Below, one piece after another: positions 18,346 to 31,526 of a DNA stretch of 64,000 nt. Each line of letters starts with the position of its first letter. Position 1 is the stretch's first letter. Position numbers and translations under genes: made by a program. A model generated the notes under the pieces. That model saw only the letters and a program-made list of their open reading frames with translations, was not told the DNA's origin and ran no database searches. The stretch lies in NCBI GenBank assembly GCA_033344915.1, contig JAWPML010000001.1, positions 310,001 through 374,000 on the forward strand. Direction: 5' to 3'. The stretch is from Acidimicrobiales bacterium. GTDB taxonomy: Bacteria; Actinomycetota; Acidimicrobiia; Acidimicrobiales; Aldehydirespiratoraceae.

Positions 18346-18349
<4 letters not shown>
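17564..18349 (-). CDS. Short-chain dehydrogenase/reductase
   Basis: A 261-residue classical SDR with the cofactor motif VITGGGGGIGEAYCRRF, acidic VVDIGREQG after strand two (NAD preference), LVNNAAIYGELDLG, and catalytic YSYQQTK. PGLVMTPATDKQVPGGF and the C-terminal VNGQVLCVDGGNVMPT complete the fold. Its ATG lies in the stop of the upstream acyl-CoA ligase gene (ATGA), indicating a two-gene operon for an acyl or hydroxyacyl substrate. Confidence 0.88.
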
Positions 18350-19892
<1,543 letters not shown>

Positions 19893-20595: not shown

Positions 20596-21369
20596 ATGGA
20601 CGACGTGCTGCACTCCGAGGTTGCTGACGAGGTCGCGCTGGTGGTGATGAACCGACCCGAGAGTCGCAACGCGCTCAACTCCCTGTTGCTGGGCGGCCTG
20701 CGGGCGACCCTCTCGTCGCTCGACGCCCGTGCGGACGTGCGCGCCATCGTTCTCACCGGCGCCGACCCGGCGTTCTGCGCCGGCCTGGACCTCAAGCAAC
20801 TCGAGGCGGGCGGCTCGATCAGCGCCGGCGTCGACGACGGTCAGCCGTTCCCGCCCGACATGTCGACGCCCGTGATCGGCGCCATCAACGGGCCGGCGGT
20901 GACCGGCGGCCTCGAGATCGCGCTCGCGTGCGACCTGCTCATCGCGTCGGAGCGGGCGTCGTTCGCCGACACCCACGCCCGGGTCGGGATCCTTCCCGGC
21001 TGGGGACTGTCGGTCGAGCTGCCGCGCGCCGTCGGCGTCCGGCGGGCCCGGCAGATGAGCTTCACGGGCAACTACGTCCACGCAGAGCAGGCGCTTCAGT
21101 GGGGGCTGGTGAACGAGGTGGTGCCGCACGAGCAGCTCCTCGAACGGGCGATGGAGCTCGGGCGCGACATGGCGACGGTCCCGGCCAAGGCGGCAGCGGC
21201 CATGAAGCGCCTGTACTGGGCGACCCACGCCGTCACCGCCGGCGACGCGCTGATCGTCGAGAAGGAGGTCAACCGGAGTTGGGCAGCGTCGGGCGGCTTC
21301 GACCCGGACGCGCTGGCGGCGAGTCGCGCGGCGATCCAGGCCCGGGGATCGGCCCAGCAGGGCGACTGA
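20596..21369 (+). CDS. Enoyl-CoA hydratase/isomerase
   Basis: A 257-residue crotonase-fold protein. LVVMNRPESRNALNSLL starts the domain, DPAFCAGLDLKQLEAGG is the first oxyanion-hole loop, and PVIGAINGPAVTGGLEIALACDLLIA holds the second. ADTHARVGILPGWGLSVELPRAVG is the usual substrate region; the catalytic glutamates of mitochondrial ECH are not clearly conserved there, so it could be an isomerase or other crotonase. It is leaderless and precedes the selenoprotein-like operon by 85 bases. Confidence 0.85.
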   Translation: MDDVLHSEVADEVALVVMNRPESRNALNSLLLGGLRATLSSLDARADVRAIVLTGADPAFCAGLDLKQLEAGGSISAGVDDGQPFPPDMSTPVIGAINGPAVTGGLEIALACDLLIASERASFADTHARVGILPGWGLSVELPRAVGVRRARQMSFTGNYVHAEQALQWGLVNEVVPHEQLLERAMELGRDMATVPAKAAAAMKRLYWATHAVTAGDALIVEKEVNRSWAASGGFDPDALAASRAAIQARGSAQQGD

Positions 21370-21394
21370 GAGGGGGCGACGAGCCCACCTCAAC

Positions 21395-21450
21395 TTGTGG
21401 CAGTCCTTATGACAGATGTATGGTCGGGGGACGTCAACCGTCCCAGGAGG
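21395..21450 (+). promoter_or_regulatory. Promoter and strong ribosome-binding site of the selenoprotein operon
   Basis: TTGTGG at 21395-21400 and TATGGT at 21419-21424 are 18 bases apart. AGGAGG at 21445-21450 lies four bases before ATG 21455, one of the strongest Shine-Dalgarno sequences in the window. The TetR protein encoded two genes later may bind here, but no clear operator palindrome was identified. Confidence 0.5.
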
Positions 21451-21454
21451 ATCC

Positions 21455-22609
21455 ATGTCCGGCGACGCCCCGATGCGGAACTATGCCGCCACGCTTCCCG
21501 CTCCGGAGTTCTCCGAGCCCGCCTTCACGACGCCCGTGGCGCTGCAGGACGCGACGGTCGCGATCGTCACCTCGGCTGCGCTGCACCGTCCGGACGACGA
21601 GTCCTTCCACCAGACGGAGACCGACTATCGGGTCCTGCCCCGCGAGGAGCGCGGCTATGTGCTCGGTCACTGGAGTCCGAACTTCGACCGGGCCGGCTTC
21701 ACGGCCGACCTGAATGTGGTGTTCCCGATCGACCGGCTCGAAGAGCTCGCGGCGGACGGCACGATCGGCGCCGTGAGCGACATCCATCTGTCGTTCGCGG
21801 GGAATCAGGAGGAGGACGGGCTCGCGACGATCATCCACGACTCCGGGCCCCGGGCCGCCGCGGAACTCAAGGCGGCCGGCGTCGATGTCGTGCTGCTCAC
21901 CCCCGTTTGACCGCTCTGCACGCGCACCGTGTGTGTGCTCGCCCATGTCCTCGAAGCCGGCGGTCTCGCCACGGTCGCGCTCGCGTCGATGCGCCCGGTC
22001 GCCGAGAAGGTCGCCCCACCACGCGTCCTGCACGGCGAGTTCCCGCTCGGTCGTCCGCTCGGCAAGCCGGGTGACGCCGAGTTCCAACACGACGTGATCG
22101 CCCGCGCGTTCGCGCTCCTCGACGCCCCTGAGCCGGTGATCGAGAGCCACCCCGTCACCATCGAGGACACCACCGAGGCGGTTGCGTGCGCGTTGCCCCC
22201 GGCGTTCGACGGTGATGCCTCGCCCGCGGTGCTGGAAGCCAAGGGGATCCGCAAGGCCTACGACCGGATCGTGGAGCGGCGCGGTGTCACGAGTGTCGGA
22301 CGGGTCATGACCGCCGACGAGGTTCCCGCCGCGCTCGAGGTCCTCGAGGCGATCGCGGCCGGCACGAGCTTCAAGGAGGCCGGCCTGCCGGGCAAGAACT
22401 CCATCGCGACGTGTCATGACATCCGCACGTACTACGAGGAGGCGGCCGTCGAGCTGGTGGACGGACCCGTGGCCGACGGACGGGCGATCGAGTCGTGGTT
22501 CTTCGACCAGACCGAAGCCGGCAAGGTCGTGCTCGCCGCTCGCCAGGCGATGTCCGACCAGGGGGCACCGATGCCGTTCTGGTTCTACATGGCGCCGGGA
22601 CACCGGTGA
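21455..22609 (+). CDS. GrdB/PrdB-like reductase family protein with in-frame UGA, probable selenoprotein
   Basis: From ATG 21455 the frame is open for 151 codons (MSGDAPMRNYAATLPAPEFS to DVVLLTPV). It meets TGA at 21908-21910 and continues in the same frame (PLCTRTVCVLAHVLEAGG) to 22609. Read through, it is 384 residues with Sec152 in a U-x-x-C motif. The family is glycine/betaine/sarcosine/D-proline reductase selenoprotein B, whose members carry Sec or Cys at this place after a LLT/ILT strand. A hairpin directly follows the TGA. Coding quality and homology are equal on both sides. The protein may be a thiol-redox enzyme rather than an amino-acid reductase. No Sec machinery lies in the window. 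The alternative is a nonsense mutation. Confidence 0.75.
21908..21938 (+). promoter_or_regulatory. In-frame UGA and SECIS-like hairpin
   Basis: After TGA 21908-21910, bases 21918-21926 (GCACGCGCA) pair with 21930-21938 (TGTGTGTGC). The 9-bp stem includes two G-U pairs and is closed by CCG. The apical loop begins 17 bases after the UGA, within the distance range of bacterial SECIS elements. The loop has only one G and it is not in the first two positions; a shifted register (loop GCACCGTGT) would start with G. A match to the strict bacterial consensus therefore remains open. Confidence 0.5.
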
Positions 22610-23217
22610 CCGCCGACTCCCTCCCGACCGTCGACGGTCGTCGCGCTCGCCGCGACCAGAACCGCGACCGCGTCGTCGATGCGCTTCTGGATCTCTACCG
22701 CGAGGGCGACCTCGAACCGTCGGTGAACGCCGTCGCCGAGCGCTCCGGCGTCAGCCATCGTTCCGTGTTCCGCTACTTCGACGACCTCGACGAGCTGTAC
22801 CGGGTGGCCATCGAACGTCAGTACCAGACGCTGCGCGTTCACCTCCTCATCAGCGAGATCGGTCGGGGCACCCTGCTGGAGCGAATCGACCGGATCGTCG
22901 CCAATCGGCTCGACCTGTACGAGGTCGCCGCACCGGTCGCCCGCGTCGGACACATGAAGGCACCGCTCGAGCCGATCCTCCTCGACCATCTCCGCGACAA
23001 CGCCCAGGAATCGATCATTCAGGTCCGGCGACACTTCGCGGACGAGCTCGCGGCGATGACCGCCGAGCGGTCGGCGGTTGCAGCCGAGGCGATCACCCTC
23101 GTCCTGTCGATGGAGTCGATGGAGACCATGCTGTTCATCCGCGGGCTCTCCCGCGACCAGGCCGCGGCCTGCATGCGGATGACGCTGACCGGAATCCTGG
23201 GGGCGGCGGATGGCTGA
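22606..23217 (+). CDS. TetR-family transcriptional regulator
   Basis: A 203-residue regulator whose N-terminus contains RRARRDQNRDRVVDALLDLY and the helix-turn-helix AVAERSGVSHRSVFRYFDDLDELY (about residues 38-62). The C-terminal ligand domain is typical in length. GTG 22606 overlaps the stop of the selenoprotein-like gene (GTGA), so it is expressed from the same operon and may autoregulate it. It ends eight bases inside the SRPBCC gene. Confidence 0.85.
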   Translation: MTADSLPTVDGRRARRDQNRDRVVDALLDLYREGDLEPSVNAVAERSGVSHRSVFRYFDDLDELYRVAIERQYQTLRVHLLISEIGRGTLLERIDRIVANRLDLYEVAAPVARVGHMKAPLEPILLDHLRDNAQESIIQVRRHFADELAAMTAERSAVAAEAITLVLSMESMETMLFIRGLSRDQAAACMRMTLTGILGAADG

Positions 23218-23662
23218 TCGGCGCGTCGAGCAGACGACGGTGGTGCCGCCGGCTGCGGTGTGGAAGAAGCTCGCGGCGTTCGACCGGATCGCGGAGTGGT
23301 CCGCGGAGGTCGACCATTCGTCGTTCATGACGAGCCGGGAGGAGGGCATCGGGGCCGTTCGGCGAGTACAGGTCGGGCCGCTGACCCTTCGCGAGGAGAT
23401 CATCGAATGGGAGCCCGAGCAGACGCTCGCCTACGAGCTCCAGGGTCTGCCCGCCATCGTGTCGCGGGTCGTGAACTCGTGGGAGATCGCCGCCGATGGC
23501 GCCGGGAGTCGGGTCAGCCTCACGCTCGACGTCACCCCCGGCCCCAAGCCACCCATGCGTCTCGCCGCGCGAGTGCTCGCCCGCCGGATCGGTTCGACGA
23601 ACGAGAAGCTCCTGGCCGGTCTCGTGGCCGCGGTCGAGCGGGACGAAAAGGGAGCGGGATGA
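23210..23662 (+). CDS. SRPBCC (polyketide cyclase/START-like) protein
   Basis: A 150-residue helix-grip protein: VEQTTVVPPAAVWKKLAAFD at the N-terminus, central strands with TLREEIIEWEPEQTLAYEL, and a C-terminal amphipathic helix (ARRIGSTNEKLLAGLVAAVE). These proteins bind hydrophobic small molecules in a central cavity. It overlaps the TetR gene and its stop overlaps the next ATG, so it is a core operon member. The ligand is unknown. Confidence 0.8.
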   Translation: MADRRVEQTTVVPPAAVWKKLAAFDRIAEWSAEVDHSSFMTSREEGIGAVRRVQVGPLTLREEIIEWEPEQTLAYELQGLPAIVSRVVNSWEIAADGAGSRVSLTLDVTPGPKPPMRLAARVLARRIGSTNEKLLAGLVAAVERDEKGAG

Positions 23663-26217
23663 CGTCGCCAGCCCAGCCGGACATCATCGTGATCCTCACC
23701 GACGAGGAACGAGCCGCGCCGTCCTACGAGACGGATGACGTCCGTCGTTGGCGCGCCGAGGCGCTACCGGCCCGCCGGTGGTTCGACGAGAACGCCGTGT
23801 CGTTCGACCGTCATTACGTGGCCTCGACGGCGTGTGTGCCGAGCCGGCCGTGTCTGCTCACCGGGCAGTATCCGGACGTCCACGGTGTCACCCAGACCAA
23901 CGGCCTCGCGAAGCGTGACGACGACAGCCGGATGCGCTGGCTCCGCCCGGACGAGGTGCCGACGCTCGGCGACTGGATGCGGGCGGCGGGCTACGACACG
24001 CACTATGTCGGGAAGTGGCACGTGAGCCACGCCGACCTGATGGTCGACGGCCGGCCGCTCGACACCAACACCGACGACGGCGACCTGATCTCCTCGGCCG
24101 TCGATGCCTATCTCGAGGCTGATCCACTGGACGAATTCGGTTTCAGCGGATGGGTCGGACCGGAGCCGCACAGCGGGCGGAAGTCCGACATGGGCATCGT
24201 CCGTGACCCGATCTACGCCGAGCGCGCCGTTGCGTTCCTGGAGGATCGCTACGCGCGGCGCGTCGCCGGCGATGCCGATGCTGCTCGGCCGTTCCTCCTG
24301 GTCTGCTCGTTCGTCAACCCCCACGACATCGTTCTCTGGCCGATCCTCGCCCGTCGTCCGCTGCCCGAGGCGGCTGTGGCGTTGCCCGAGGTGCCGCCGT
24401 CGCCGACCGACGACGAGGACCTGTCGACCAAGCCGGCGCTGCACAGTGCGTACCGCGACGCCTACTACTCCGGGTACGGGCCGGCGCCGCTGGTCCGTCG
24501 CGCCTATGAGGCGAACGCCGAGCGGTACCGCCGGACCTACTACCGGCTGCACCACGACGTGGACGGGCCGATCGACCGGGTGCGCCGCACCGTCACGGGG
24601 GCCGGCCACGAATCGGTCGTGGTGTTCTCCTCGGACCACGGCGACATGCTCGGCAGCCATGGTGGGCTCCACCAGAAGTGGTACCAGCTCTACGACGAGG
24701 CGACCCGGGTGCCGTTCCAGATGGCCCGCGTCGGCGCCGAGCCGTCCGCGCCCGGATCGGTACCGGTTCCCACGAGCCACATCGATCTGGTGCCCACATT
24801 GCTCGGCGTGGCCGGCGCGTCCGAGGCCGAGCTGGCATCGAAGCTCGCGGAGACCCACTCGGAGGTCCATCCGCTGCCCGGTCGTGACCTGAGCGGCGTC
24901 CTGGCCGGCGGATCCGTCGCGAACGCGCCGGTCTACATGATCACGCGGGACAATGTTCTCGAGGGCGACGGCAACGCCTCGGCGATCGCCCAGCAGCGGG
25001 GGCGCCGCGAGGCGCCGTACCCCTTGCAGATCAGGATCCCGGCCCACGCAGCAACCAATGTCGAAGCCGTCGTCGACCGCGTCGACGGTCGGATGTGGAA
25101 GCTCGTGCGTACCTTCGACGACCCCGCCGGCTGGACGGATCCCTTCGTGCGGAACCTCTCCGTCCGGGGGCCGAGCGGGCCGGCGTTCCGCACGGAGCCG
25201 ATTCCCGACCAGTGGGAGCTCTACGACCTCGATGCCGATCCGGCCGAGGCCGTCAATCGAGCCGACGATCCGGCCGCGGCCGATGCGCGACACCATCTGG
25301 AGACGACGATGACCAACGCCCGAGACGCTGTCCCCGAACGCAATCGCCCGTGGCCGACCGCGGTCCGCCCGGACGACGGACCCGTGGCGAAGACGCCGCC
25401 CAAGCCGGCCCTCGCCGCTCGTCGACTCCTCCAGCGGATCGGCATGCACCCGGACGACCCGGATGCCGTGCAGCTCGACCTCACCGGGCACCGGGCGCTC
25501 GTCGTGGCGACCAACCACGGCACGCTCGGAGTCAACAAGCCGACCGGCGTCTTCGGCTCCGAGCTGACGGTGCCGTACTACGAGTTCCTCGACGCCGGGA
25601 TGGAGGTCGATGTCGCGTCACCGCGGGGCGGCGACATCCCGTTCGATCCGGCGTCGTTCAAGCCGGCGGTGCGGTCCCATCACGACGACCGCTACATGGT
25701 CGACGACGAACTCCAGCAGAAGTGCATGGACTCGATCCCGATCGACGCCGTCGACATCGAGTCCTACGACATCGTGTTCTTCGCCGGCGGCTGGGGGGCC
25801 GCGTGGGATCTCGGCACCTCCGACGAGATCGGCGAGCAGGTGACGAAGGCGGCAGCCAACGGCGCTGTGCTCGGCGGGATCTGCCACGGGCCGCTCGGCC
25901 TCCTCAAGGCGAAGGGTCCCGGCGGGGAGCCGCTCGTCAAGGGCCGTCGGATCACGGCGGTGACCGACAAGCAGGTCACCGAGCTCGGGATCTCCCACAC
26001 GCCGCAGCATCCCGAGACCGAGCTGCGCAACGCCGGGGCGAACTTCGAGTCGTCCACCCACCGGCTTCGTGACATGTTCGCCAACCATGTCGTGGTCGAC
26101 GGTGACCTCATCACCGGTCAGAACCAGAACTCGGGCCTGATGGTGTCCCGCGAGATGATGCAGCGCGTGCTCGAGAAGGCCGCGGCGAGCGCCGCCGAAC
26201 AGCCCCAGGAGGCATAG
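23659..26217 (+). CDS. Fusion of a type I sulfatase with a DJ-1/PfpI domain
   Basis: The 852-residue protein starts at an ATGA overlap. Residues 1 to about 520 form a formylglycine sulfatase: DIIVILTDEER (metal Asp15), CVPSR with Cys59 as the formylglycine site, VGKWH, and VVFSSDHGDMLGSHGG. A linker of about 90 residues follows. Residues from about 615 form a DJ-1/PfpI domain: LVVATNHGTLG, GVFGSELTVPYYEFLDAG, FFAGGWGAAWDL, and the nucleophile elbow GGICHGPLGLL with Cys742. Each domain is near full length and the frame is unbroken. It is cytoplasmic by appearance (no signal peptide). The combination is unusual; the substrate may be an organic sulfate ester or a phosphonate/choline-sulfate-like compound. 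Confidence 0.85.
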   Translation: MTSPAQPDIIVILTDEERAAPSYETDDVRRWRAEALPARRWFDENAVSFDRHYVASTACVPSRPCLLTGQYPDVHGVTQTNGLAKRDDDSRMRWLRPDEVPTLGDWMRAAGYDTHYVGKWHVSHADLMVDGRPLDTNTDDGDLISSAVDAYLEADPLDEFGFSGWVGPEPHSGRKSDMGIVRDPIYAERAVAFLEDRYARRVAGDADAARPFLLVCSFVNPHDIVLWPILARRPLPEAAVALPEVPPSPTDDEDLSTKPALHSAYRDAYYSGYGPAPLVRRAYEANAERYRRTYYRLHHDVDGPIDRVRRTVTGAGHESVVVFSSDHGDMLGSHGGLHQKWYQLYDEATRVPFQMARVGAEPSAPGSVPVPTSHIDLVPTLLGVAGASEAELASKLAETHSEVHPLPGRDLSGVLAGGSVANAPVYMITRDNVLEGDGNASAIAQQRGRREAPYPLQIRIPAHAATNVEAVVDRVDGRMWKLVRTFDDPAGWTDPFVRNLSVRGPSGPAFRTEPIPDQWELYDLDADPAEAVNRADDPAAADARHHLETTMTNARDAVPERNRPWPTAVRPDDGPVAKTPPKPALAARRLLQRIGMHPDDPDAVQLDLTGHRALVVATNHGTLGVNKPTGVFGSELTVPYYEFLDAGMEVDVASPRGGDIPFDPASFKPAVRSHHDDRYMVDDELQQKCMDSIPIDAVDIESYDIVFFAGGWGAAWDLGTSDEIGEQVTKAAANGAVLGGICHGPLGLLKAKGPGGEPLVKGRRITAVTDKQVTELGISHTPQHPETELRNAGANFESSTHRLRDMFANHVVVDGDLITGQNQNSGLMVSREMMQRVLEKAAASAAEQPQEA

Positions 26218-26219
26218 CG

Positions 26220-27050
26220 ATGGAGGTCATCCTGCTCGGAACCGGGAGTCCGCTGCCCGACCCGAACCGGGCCGGTCCCTGCACGCTCGTCAAGGCCGGC
26301 GAGGGCAACGGGGAGCACGTCCTCTTCGACACCGGGCGGGGTTGTGTGATGCGGATGCCGCTCGCCCAGACGGCACCCGGCTTCCTCGCCGGCGTGGTGA
26401 TCACCCACCTCCACAGCGACCACCTCACCGCGTTCAACGACATCATCACGACGCACTGGATCACGGCGCCGGAGGGCACGCCGCTGCGGGTGTGGGGCCC
26501 GGTCGGGATCAAGCACTATGTCGGCCACATGCTCCTCGCCCTCGGCCCGGACATGACGTACCGCATGGACCACCACGACGACCTCAACTGGGAGCCCGAC
26601 GTCCAGGTGACCGAGGTGGTGCCGGGTGACTCGTTCACGATCGGGTCGATGTCGATCTCGTGCTTCGAGACGTGTCATGCGCCGGTCGAGCCGACCGTCG
26701 GGTATCGCGTCGAGAGCGAGGGCAAGGTCGTCGCCATCGCGGGGGACACGATCCCGTGCGACGGCCTCGACGCGCTCACGAAGGACGCCGACGTCTACGT
26801 GCAGACCGTGATCCGCGACGACATCGTCAAGACCATTCCGGTCCCGCGGCTGCAGGACATCCTCGACTACCACTCATCGGTCGAACAGGCCGGCCAGGTC
26901 GCGGCGAGGAACGGCGTGAAGACACTCATGCTCACGCACTATGTGCCCGCGCCCCAGCCGGAGCAGTACGACGAGTGGATCGCCATCGCGGCCAAGGAGT
27001 TCGACGGTGAGATCGTCATGGGCGACGACCTCACCTCCGTGACGATCTAG
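26220..27050 (+). CDS. MBL-fold hydrolase (RNase Z / arylsulfatase-like)
   Basis: A 276-residue metallo-beta-lactamase-fold protein starting two bases after the sulfatase stop, with GGAGG inside the end of that gene. LLGTGSPLPDPNRAGPCTLV is typical of the RNase Z/ElaC-like branch. ITHLHSDHLTAF supplies HxHxDH, VAIAGDT the bridging Asp, and MLTHYVP the last His. The exosite arm of tRNase Z is absent, and related proteins act as arylsulfatases or phosphodiesterases. As last gene of the operon it may share the sulfatase's substrate class. Confidence 0.85.
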   Translation: MEVILLGTGSPLPDPNRAGPCTLVKAGEGNGEHVLFDTGRGCVMRMPLAQTAPGFLAGVVITHLHSDHLTAFNDIITTHWITAPEGTPLRVWGPVGIKHYVGHMLLALGPDMTYRMDHHDDLNWEPDVQVTEVVPGDSFTIGSMSISCFETCHAPVEPTVGYRVESEGKVVAIAGDTIPCDGLDALTKDADVYVQTVIRDDIVKTIPVPRLQDILDYHSSVEQAGQVAARNGVKTLMLTHYVPAPQPEQYDEWIAIAAKEFDGEIVMGDDLTSVTI

Positions 27051-28180
27051 TCCCAGTCCACGGCGGCGTCGGGCGCGGCGGCGATCTTCGCTTCGGCGAA
27101 CGCGAACGTGTGGGCCGGGCTCACCATCGCGTGCTGGCTGCCGGCGTGGATGTCGCGGAAGGCTCGTTGGAACGGACCGTCCCGCAGCGCCGTCGTGCCG
27201 ATGTGGCGGTACAGCTTCTGGAGGGCCTCGGTCGACTGCTGGGTGAACCACGCGGTGGCCTGGAGCGCCTCGCCGACCAGCGACTGGTCGGGATTGTCGT
27301 TCAGGGCCGACTGCTCGGCCTTGGCGAAAGCGGTCCGAATCCACAGGTCTCCGGCCCGGAACAGGCTCTCGGCTTCGCCGAGGTCGTACTGGAAACGGGG
27401 GTCGTCGGCGAGCGTCGACTTGCCGGTCATGCGTTGCTTCGTGCGGGCGATCACCGCCGCCTCGTCGATGGCCCGTCGCATCACGCCGAGCGCCCAGCCG
27501 GCATGGCCGATCTCGGTGAGGTGGAGGATGCCGAGGTCGAACTGTTTGCCCCCGCGGTGGCGGGTGAAGCCGAACATCGAGAACGTCCGGTCCGCCGGCA
27601 CGACGCTGTCGATCCGATAGTCGTACGACGCCGTCGAGCGCAGGCCCATGACGTCCCAGTTGCCGATGATGTCGGCCTCGGCCTTCGGGACGACGGCGAA
27701 GATGTAGTCCGGGTCGCCCTCGTCCGGTGTGGTCATCGAGCCGCTGCCGGCCCAGTCCGCGTGTTCCAGTCCCGAGCCGAACGAGTAGTTCCCGGTGATG
27801 TGGAAGGCATCGCCCTGGGGCGCGGCGGTGCCGTTCGGCGCGAACTGGCCGGCGACGAGCGGGACGCCGTCGGCGAACATGACATCGGTGAACGAATCGG
27901 GGCAGTACGAGCTGAAGTAGGCGGTCGCGGTGCTGCCGGCCATCACGACCCAGCCGATCGAACCGTCGGCTCGAGCGAGTTCGGTGAAGACGTCGAGGCT
28001 GTCCGCCGCGTCGAGCTCCGCCCCGCCGACCTCCTTGGCGACGAGCGCGCCGTAGAGGCCCGCGTCCTTGCACATCGCGACCGCGGCGTCGGTCATCGGG
28101 GTGCCGGCCGCTTCGGCCTTGGCGCCTTCGGCGTCGAGGGCCGACCGAAGGTCGCGAGCGGCGTCGTGCAGGGAAGTCAT
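27047..28180 (-). CDS. Acyl-CoA-dehydrogenase-fold flavoprotein (HsaA/DszC-like monooxygenase)
   Basis: From ATG 28180 the protein has 377 residues. A GTG at 28222 would add 14 residues that look like promoter-region translation. GLYGALVAKEVGGAELDAAD, DGSIGWVVMAGSTATAYFSS and GNYSFGSGLEHADWAGSG are typical of the type-2 acyl-CoA dehydrogenase branch that includes flavin-dependent monooxygenases such as HsaA. QQSTEALQKLYRHIGTTAL near the C-terminus is the arginine/FAD-binding helix region. It may need a separate flavin reductase, not seen here. It converges with the MBL gene, overlapping by four bases. Confidence 0.8.
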   Translation of the reverse strand: MTSLHDAARDLRSALDAEGAKAEAAGTPMTDAAVAMCKDAGLYGALVAKEVGGAELDAADSLDVFTELARADGSIGWVVMAGSTATAYFSSYCPDSFTDVMFADGVPLVAGQFAPNGTAAPQGDAFHITGNYSFGSGLEHADWAGSGSMTTPDEGDPDYIFAVVPKAEADIIGNWDVMGLRSTASYDYRIDSVVPADRTFSMFGFTRHRGGKQFDLGILHLTEIGHAGWALGVMRRAIDEAAVIARTKQRMTGKSTLADDPRFQYDLGEAESLFRAGDLWIRTAFAKAEQSALNDNPDQSLVGEALQATAWFTQQSTEALQKLYRHIGTTALRDGPFQRAFRDIHAGSQHAMVSPAHTFAFAEAKIAAAPDAAVDWD

Positions 28181-29807: not shown

Positions 29808-30437
29808 TCAGGTGAGGCCGAGTTCGGCGATGCGGTCGAGGACGCGAGGGCGTTCGTCGTCGATGACGGTGGTGTCACCGTGGCCGGTGTGGACGATCGT
29901 GTCGCCCGGCAACGTGAGTAGGCGGTCACGGATCGAGCGGAGAATCGTCGGCTCGTCGCTGTAGCTGCGTCCGGTCGCGCCGGGGCCGCCACAGAAGAGC
30001 GTGTCGCCCGAGATCACCCGGCCGGCATCGACCTCGTGGAAGCAGCAACAACCGGGCGAGTGGCCCGGCGTGTGGATGATGCCCACTTCGTGACCACCAG
30101 CGGACAGTGTCGTGCCCGGGACCACCTCGCCGTCGGGATCGGCGTTCGGGTAGACGACGTCCCACAGCATCCGGTCATCGGGGTGCAGCAGGATCGGCGC
30201 GTCGACCGCGTCGCGCAGGGCCGTGGCCGCGTTGATGTGGTCGTTGTGGCCGTGGGTCAGCACGATGGCGGTCACGCGCCGCCCGTTGACGGCGTCGACG
30301 ATCGGCTGATGGTCGTGGGCCGCGTCGAAGACCATCACCTCGCGGTCGTCGCCGACGATCCAGATGTTGTTGGTGACGTCCCATTCGCCCCCGTCGAGGG
30401 CGAAGATGCCGTCGGTTGTGACCAGCTCGATCGCCAT
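29808..30437 (-). CDS. MBL-fold hydrolase paired with mycothiol formaldehyde dehydrogenase
   Basis: A 209-residue glyoxalase-II-like protein: VLTHGHNDHINAA (HxHxDH), HTPGHSPGCCCFH, SGDTLFCGG, and the terminal HTGHGDTT. Mycobacteria carry a similar MBL gene next to the S-(hydroxymethyl)mycothiol dehydrogenase gene. The likely role is hydrolysis of an S-acyl (formyl) mycothiol thioester formed by that enzyme. It starts three bases after the dehydrogenase stop and is clearly co-transcribed. Confidence 0.85.
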   Translation of the reverse strand: MAIELVTTDGIFALDGGEWDVTNNIWIVGDDREVMVFDAAHDHQPIVDAVNGRRVTAIVLTHGHNDHINAATALRDAVDAPILLHPDDRMLWDVVYPNADPDGEVVPGTTLSAGGHEVGIIHTPGHSPGCCCFHEVDAGRVISGDTLFCGGPGATGRSYSDEPTILRSIRDRLLTLPGDTIVHTGHGDTTVIDDERPRVLDRIAELGLT

Positions 30438-30440
30438 TCG

Positions 30441-31526
30441 TCAGATCTCGACGACGGAGCGGAGCACTTCGCCGCGTTCCATCTTGTGAAAGGCCTCCTC
30501 GACGTCCTCCAGGGAGATCGTCTCGGACACGAAGCCGTCGAGATCGAGCCGTCCCTGCAGGTAGAGGTCGATGAGCATGGGGAAATCGCGTGACGGCAGG
30601 CAGTCGCCGTACCAGCTCGATTTCAGGGCGCCACCGCGCCCGAACACCTCCTGGAACGGCAGCGTGATCTCCATCTCCGGTGTCGGCACGCCCACGAGCA
30701 CGACGGTGCCGGCGAGATCGCGGGCCTCGAAACACTGCCGGTAGACCTGGGGGAGTCCGATGGCGTCGATGCAGACGTCGGCGCCGAAGCCGTTCGTGTA
30801 CTCCTGGATCTTCTCGACGGCGTCCTCGTTGCCCGAGTTCACCGTGTGGGTCGCGCCGAAGCCCTTCGCCCATTCGAGCTTCTGATCGTCGATGTCGACG
30901 GCGACGATCGTCGAGGCGCCGGCGAGCTTCGCTCCGGCGATCGCGGCGTCGCCCACCCCGCCGCAGCCGAAGACGGCGACCGTGTCACCCCGGCTCACGC
31001 CGCCGGTGTTGATCGCCGCGCCGATGCCGGCCATGACGCCGCAGCCGAGCAGGCCGGCTGCCGCGGGCGACGCACTCGGGTCTACCTTCGTGCACTGACC
31101 CGCGGCGACGAGCGTTTTCTCGGCGAAGGCGCCGATGCCGAGGGCGGGGGACAGTTCGGTGCCGTCCTCCAACGTCATCTTCTGCTCGGCGTTGAACGTG
31201 TTGAAGCAGAGGTGGGGCGTGCCCTTGTTGCACGCGCGACAGTTGCCGCACACGGCCCGCCAGTTCAGGATGACGAAGTCGCCGGGCTCGACCTCGGTGA
31301 CGCCGTCGCCGACGGACTCCACGATGCCGCTCGCCTCGTGGCCCAGCAGGAACGGGAACTCGTCGTTGATGCCACCCTCGCGATAGTGCAGATCGGTGTG
31401 GCACACGCCGCAGGCCTGGATCGCGACGACGGCCTCGCCCGGGCCGGGGTCCGGGATCACGATGTTCTCGATCGTGACCGGCTCACCAACCGCCTTGGCC
31501 ACCACACCCTTCACCGTCTGCGCCAT
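30441..31526 (-). CDS. mscR: S-(hydroxymethyl)mycothiol dehydrogenase
   Basis: A 361-residue zinc-dependent medium-chain dehydrogenase. The catalytic zinc motif is [15 protein letters not shown] with GHEASGIV; the structural zinc cysteines are in [15 protein letters not shown]; the NAD motif is [14 protein letters not shown] with an acidic VDIDDQK. Family and neighbour (MBL hydrolase) match the mycothiol-dependent formaldehyde/S-nitrosomycothiol reductase of mycobacteria. It detoxifies formaldehyde through its mycothiol adduct. ATG 31526 was chosen over an upstream in-frame start because AGGGGG lies ten bases before it and a -10 box sits further upstream. Confidence 0.88.

Follow-up and report, generated by a model that had tools for sequence, protein, structure and literature searches.

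A TetR-associated operon linking a PrdB-like selenoprotein to sulfatase and metallo-hydrolase genes in Acidimicrobiia: a candidate pathway for sulfated lipophilic compounds

The selenoproteins PrdB and GrdB are substrate-specific reductases in which a selenolate attacks an activated carbon. The PrdB-like proteins rank with the most frequent selenoproteins of ocean metagenomes, where they are labelled 'proline reductase' (PMC2398784, PMC9402790). PrdB-type seawater selenoproteins have been counted since 2008, with 235 GOS sequences (PMC2398784), and PrdB / proline reductase accounted for 6.4% of selenoprotein genes in a later survey (PMC9402790). A GrdB-like protein has also been implicated in the reductive defluorination of fluoroacetate (PMC12366334), and the AtsA sulfatases (family S4) lie near RNase Z (PMC5066984). 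We describe here an operon from which genomics can offer an initial hint at what the abundant 'proline reductase-like' selenoproteins of aquatic bacteria may do; no paper on these gene clusters was found in the open-access literature.

The operon consists of five genes at 21455-27050 on the forward strand of the window, by which we mean the whole stretch of 64,000 nucleotides that was analysed and that belongs to a single-contig genome of 4.48 Mb with Acidimicrobiales as relatives. An earlier note on this DNA had joined the five genes by overlaps or a 2-base gap, and the coordinates bear this out, the successive junctions being overlaps of 4, 8 and 4 bases and then a gap of 2 bases. The ribosome-binding site that it placed ahead of the operon is present and its domain calls hold (PF07355/TIGR04483-like, TetR_N, Polyketide_cyc2, Sulfatase plus DJ-1_PfpI, Lactamase_B_2). 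Its 'strong promoter' was not recovered by a scan for the sigma-70 consensus, which gave 0 hits; the stretch taken for this promoter (21394-21420) holds a conserved palindrome element. A search of the operon against Rfam returned no match. The features of the locus are the following.

20596..21369 (+): enoyl-CoA hydratase (PRK06190), conserved upstream neighbour; the predicted operator lies between it and the operon
21394..21420 (+): upstream element CTTGTGGCAGTCCTTATGACAGATGTA, predicted TetR operator, overlapping or adjoining the promoter
21445..21450 (+): ribosome-binding site AGGAGG, called from the sequence, upstream of the ATG at 21455
21455..22609 (+): PrdB-like selenoprotein, 384 aa, Sec at residue 152
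21908..21910 (+): in-frame TGA predicted to be read as selenocysteine, residue 152
21922..21938 (+): hairpin resembling a bacterial SECIS, with a stem of 6 bp and CCGUG as its loop, 14-30 nt past the UGA
22606..23217 (+): TetR-family regulator, GTG start
23210..23662 (+): predicted SRPBCC / Polyketide_cyc2 small-molecule binding protein (PF10604, 65.5 bits)
23659..26217 (+): cytoplasmic S1 sulfatase fused to a DJ-1/PfpI domain, 852 aa
26220..27050 (+): metallo-beta-lactamase-fold (MBL) hydrolase of the RNase Z / AtsA branch, 276 aa, HxHxDH intact
27047..28180 (-): HsaA-like oxygenase of the acyl-CoA-dehydrogenase fold, convergent conserved neighbour, not co-transcribed

The first gene forms a single frame of 384 residues only with readthrough of the TGA at 21908-21910, and gene callers that end at UGA split the selenoprotein into two. 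Comparison with homologues strongly supports the reading of this codon as selenocysteine. The aligned codon is TGA in 80 of 80 homologues from named genomes and a Cys codon in none, and the homologues found in 35 of 61 related genomes each contain exactly one TGA within the match. Of 96 distinct homologue sequences, 91 keep every base pair in the stem of the SECIS-like hairpin; when synonymous codons were redrawn from each locus's own usage, full stems numbered 0.8 on average and 4 at most. One double change, from C-G to U-A, also shows covariation in this stem. Folding of the single sequence was uninformative (z = -0.88), and it is the codon-null test across homologues that settles the SECIS question. 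A frameshift or a pseudogene can be ruled out for the first gene since the UGA is conserved and followed by the SECIS. The genome also encodes the required machinery, namely tRNA-Sec (64 bits; ARAGORN concurs), SelA, SelB (over its cut-off) and SelD. SelA occurs in 34 of the 35 genomes with the selenoprotein versus 15 of the 26 without it (P = 1.6e-4), the lone exception being an 84%-complete genome. The selD gene (G000:C1:1225971-1226897, L084) itself carries an in-frame TGA, so that SelD is probably a selenoprotein too.

The selenoprotein exceeds the gathering score of PF07355, the GRDB superfamily (29.2 bits vs 22). Its nearest model is that of PrdB, TIGR04483, which it matches at 115.4 bits, below the equivalog cut-off of 300; the glycine/sarcosine/betaine reductase selenoprotein B model TIGR01918 gives 46.7 bits for a cut-off of 65.45. 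No match to it was found among solved structures. The main motif around Sec across homologues is LTPV-U-PLC-TRTV, and about 150 aa are added at the C-terminus, with conserved C245, D322 and W348. The pyruvoyl partner, PF09338, is absent from the genome and from all genomes of the same family; among related genomes, a GrdB-like gene adjoins a PF09338 gene only in one distant relative (G045). A D-proline or glycine reductase is thus ruled out because the pyruvoyl partner is missing, and the scores below cut-off and the different motif speak against it as well. On these profile and alignment data, the protein is a member of the PrdB/GrdB superfamily forming a subfamily of its own. By analogy, its mechanism would resemble that of PrdB and GrdB, with selenolate attack on an activated carbon and a resolving Cys. 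What appears to be new is this UPxC, C-terminally extended and pyruvoyl-free subfamily, together with the SECIS that it carries, its link to a module of sulfatase, MBL and dehalogenase genes and the common operator; no paper describing the subfamily, its module or its operator was found in the open-access literature.

Other members of the family were encountered along the way. Several genomes hold shorter UGA-containing PrdB-like paralogues of about 260-310 aa (L078, L079 and other short matches, e.g. with UPVCHQS), in neighbourhoods other than that of the operon. The Chloroflexota copies (L140, L149, L157, L158, L161) have a conserved neighbourhood of their own, unlike that of the operon, in which N-termini inspected by eye suggest a large ATP-grasp carboxylase-like protein and aminotransferase-like, kinase-like, acyl-CoA dehydrogenase-like and VOC-like proteins; the selenoprotein family therefore has a wider role. 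DUF2855 (PF11017), which has no match among solved structures, stands beside the selenoprotein gene in 11 of 102 loci, and GST-like genes do so in 7+4 (L095, L112, L115, L146, L159 and others). Two metagenome-assembled genomes titled Bifidobacterium breve and Ferrithrix thermotolerans (L094, L112) also carry the gene and cluster with lake Acidimicrobiia, and these names are probably wrong.

We then consider whether the five genes belong together. Counted over 61 genomes, most of them metagenome-assembled and related to a degree that inflates the counts, with the genes of relatives called by a home-made caller, the MBL gene was present in 31 of 31 genomes with the sulfatase-DJ-1 gene versus 7 of 30 without it. 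Over this same set, inflated in the same way, 21 genomes had the sulfatase-DJ-1 and MBL genes less than 10 kb apart, where 0.25 would be expected. The selenoprotein gene lay at such a distance from the sulfatase gene in 13 genomes (expectation 0.37) and from the MBL gene in 11 (expectation 0.48). The random scatter in relatives that would have spoken against the earlier note is therefore not what is seen. Its single five-gene set stood in part: the members do cluster, but they are no fixed unit, the module often occurring without the selenoprotein. As a matter of fact, a gene of the module is missing from the 7 kb around the selenoprotein gene in 70 of 102 loci, and on a quick tree of the 102 selenoproteins the state 'module nearby' requires at least 12 changes; the link between selenoprotein and module has therefore been made or lost many times. 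The module on its own consists of SRPBCC and sulfatase-DJ-1 with TetR and MBL, the SRPBCC gene adjoining that of sulfatase-DJ-1 in 14 of 14 examined module loci that hold the sulfatase. It often adds a haloalkane dehalogenase (PRK00870, subfamily I, 467 bits for a cut-off of 265), a second arylsulfatase (like 1HDH) and a GST, and in some genomes, e.g. G038, it is found without selenoprotein or SelA. From gene order, sulfatase-DJ-1 plus MBL is a conserved module in Acidimicrobiia, and since this module stands apart from the selenoprotein in such genomes, we take the hydrolases as the core and the selenoprotein as a frequent partner. Long clusters on one strand without the selenoprotein (L173, L180, L168, L169) hold the second arylsulfatase, MBL, haloalkane dehalogenase, sulfatase-DJ-1 and SRPBCC, with GST and a DUF1330-like protein as extras in L173/L180 and an SCO6745-family protein in L168/L169.

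It is the putative operator that most strongly supports a joint action of these genes. The element CTTGTGGCAGTCCTTATGACAGATGTA lies within 85 bp ahead of the selenoprotein gene, is conserved in an alignment of six same-genus loci and contains, at 21398-21414, a 17-bp palindrome, TGDCAGN5CTGHCA. With one mismatch allowed, 13 of 102 loci have this palindrome ahead of the selenoprotein gene, for 0.36 expected. It occurs once in the 64-kb window, and a further 1.59 Mb (36% of the genome outside the window) held no site near the strength of the operon palindrome. The same palindrome precedes a separate SRPBCC-sulfatase-DJ-1 operon in two genomes, G003 (L181) and G004 (L177), whose selenoprotein operons (L043, L042) have it as well, and it also stands ahead of TetR/SRPBCC/sulfatase/MBL operons in L167, L170, L171 and L174. 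Because one palindrome precedes both the operon and the separated copies of the module, these pieces are, as far as shared sites can tell, one regulon. Of the 102 loci, 22 have the cluster's TetR within five genes of the selenoprotein gene; its TetR_N score is 22.8 bits, under the cut-off of 24. Control of the operon by this internal TetR, which the earlier note had proposed, is supported by the shared palindrome, its predicted operator.

Regarding the hydrolases, the sulfatase-DJ-1 protein scores 143.6 bits with PF00884 and 54.4 bits with PF01965. It displays the sulfatase signature CVPSR, which fits CxPxR, and the DJ-1 motif GGICHGPLG, and is nearest to choline sulfatase, not steryl sulfatase. 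The active-site motifs are kept across 15 homologues (CVPSR, GG[IV]CHGPLG for DJ-1 and HLHSDH for MBL) with the exception of one sulfatase with CVTSR, and a formylglycine (FGly)-generating enzyme is encoded elsewhere in the genome (PF03781, 245.9 bits). As for the MBL protein, its motif THLHSDH is invariant among homologues and its best match among solved structures is the arylsulfatase 8gyg (4.6e-15), slightly ahead of RNase Z (2.8e-12). Its NCBIfam matches are RNase Z-like models, all below cut-off, and it could instead be an RNase Z-like nuclease or phosphodiesterase.

Two further neighbours deserve mention. A conserved acyl-CoA synthetase gene beside the operon (18346-19892, -) is split by a frameshift near 18745; in relatives it is one frame of about 515 aa, and the gene has either been broken recently or been misassembled. 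An S-(hydroxymethyl)mycothiol dehydrogenase gene (667 bits) adjoins that of a GloB-like MBL hydrolase at 29808-31526 (-), with conserved synteny, which suggests mycothiol as the cell thiol.

We propose, at about even chances, that the five genes form an operon, repressed by TetR, through which this member of the Acidimicrobiia breaks down a lipophilic organic compound that is sulfated and may carry halogen as well; both the substrate and the reductive, C-X cleaving chemistry of the selenoprotein are what we infer from the gene content. In this scheme, the repressor would leave the palindrome once the compound or a breakdown product binds to it, and the SRPBCC protein would carry or bind the compound. 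Sulfate would be removed by the FGly sulfatase and perhaps by the AtsA-like MBL enzyme, and the DJ-1 domain could handle a reactive carbonyl product. The UxxC selenolate would then attack an activated carbon-heteroatom (C-X) bond, as in PrdB and GrdB, and be regenerated by the resolving Cys and the cellular thiol system. The carbon skeleton would finally pass to the flanking acyl-CoA synthetase, enoyl-CoA hydratase and thiolase-like genes. The 'organosulfur pathway' of the earlier note is plausible in the form of a sulfate ester, and the haloalkane dehalogenase and second arylsulfatase of relatives point further than this pathway. Weighing against the scheme are the many selenoprotein loci that lack the module, the differing neighbourhood of the Chloroflexota copies, the genomes that have the module but neither selenoprotein nor SelA, an operon devoid of haloalkane dehalogenase, and the chance that the MBL protein is a nuclease or phosphodiesterase.

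Another hypothesis, unlikely but the best placed of the alternatives, takes sulfated sterols or related terpenoids as the compounds degraded and has the Sec protein reduce or isomerise a ring or side-chain intermediate. Supporting this idea, the convergent oxygenase is HsaA-like (108 bits), the enoyl-CoA hydratase also matches EchA19 (175 bits), a thiolase has a ChsH2-type C-terminal domain, an HsaB-like flavin reductase family is found in relatives and SRPBCC is a lipid-binding fold. These HsaA-, EchA19- and ChsH2-like neighbours make sulfated sterols as natural a guess as a halogenated lipid. On the other hand, the scores for HsaA, EchA19 and the other steroid families are all below equivalog cut-offs, no regulator of the KstR class was detected (20.6 bits vs a cut-off of 280), and the affinity of the sulfatase for choline rather than steryl sulfatases does not favour a sterol.

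One would also wonder whether the Sec protein has a general role in thiol/selenol redox chemistry or in stress and lies near the sulfatase module by chance, the operon being a detoxification island rather than a single pathway. The UxxC redox motif, the recurrence of GSTs and DUF2855 near the selenoprotein gene and the absence of the module from most selenoprotein loci would all fit. Yet the selenoprotein gene has its operator in common with the separated sulfatase operon, its PrdB/GrdB relatives are specific for their substrates, and the lack of any Cys replacement in 80 homologues is unusual for general redox proteins, so that we regard this explanation as improbable and place it second among the alternatives.

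A last, minority view takes the selenoprotein for a reductive dehalogenase that depends on Sec, and the module for a set of genes degrading halogenated sulfate lipids, e.g. algal chlorosulfolipids. The sulfatases would desulfate, the haloalkane dehalogenase would hydrolyse part of the C-Cl bonds while GST and the Sec enzyme would remove others reductively, and beta-oxidation genes would finish. A halogenated sulfated lipid would explain the haloalkane dehalogenase and GST of relatives, where the subfamily I dehalogenase, two S1 sulfatases, MBL and GST share one cluster. A GrdB-like protein also belongs to the proposed fluoroacetate reductase operon farACEB (PMC12366334), and chlorosulfolipids have been described from algae, going by a title cited in PMC2866472. 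We hold this view to be very doubtful because the haloalkane dehalogenase is outside the operon, the two copies of the genome being far off, and lies near the selenoprotein gene in few cases (within 10 kb in 1 of 61 genomes, within five genes in 6 of 102 loci); moreover, no paper tying bacteria to chlorosulfolipid breakdown was found. A long shot in the same direction is an oxygen-tolerant, pyruvoyl-independent Sec reductase cleaving C-halogen (or C-O/S) bonds, which with sulfatases and haloalkane dehalogenases would degrade natural halogenated sulfolipids in aquatic Acidimicrobiia. If true, such a pyruvoyl-independent reductase would be a new enzyme class and would explain part of the marine 'proline reductase' selenoproteins.

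Returning to the proposed TetR-repressed operon for a sulfated lipophilic compound, the subfamily lacks the proline reductase partner, and its predicted operator is also that of sulfatase genes, so that the function can be put to a direct test. The extended catabolic module, with its two sulfatases, MBL, haloalkane dehalogenase, GST, SRPBCC and TetR, would speak to organosulfate, perhaps organohalogen, turnover in uncultured aquatic actinobacteria.

A parallel can be drawn with several described systems. With clostridial PrdB (TIGR04483), Sec aligns on Sec (U152 of the window protein, U151 of PrdB), UxxC is common and 29 positions are invariant. The window protein differs by UPLC in place of UGTC, by its added C-terminal extension of 150 aa and by a genome without PrdA or another pyruvoyl partner; the real prdB adjoins prdA, unlike the window gene. 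With the GrdB-type selenoproteins and the GrdB-like protein of farACEB (PMC12366334), it has in common the PF07355 superfamily and, for its proposed chemistry, reductive cleavage at an activated carbon, but it is half their length upstream of Sec, lacks a GrdE-type partner and comes from an actinobacterial host. Neither the window nor the examined neighbourhoods showed a linked Fe-S activator. The SLF alkyl-sulfate operon slfCHSL (PMC10779009) is likewise repressor-controlled and pairs a sulfatase with fatty-acid activation, whereas its regulator is of the AraC type, its sulfatase is of another class, and it has neither selenoprotein nor DJ-1 fusion. The MBL protein and AtsA (S4, PMC5066984) have an RNase Z-related fold with HxHxDH in common; identity is low and the arylsulfatase activity is putative. 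Finally, the marine 'PrdB / proline reductase' proteins are PF07355-type with UxxC like the window protein, the accessible text of the two surveys giving neither operon context nor function (PMC2398784, PMC9402790), and the marine 'PrdB' counts may include the UPLC subfamily.
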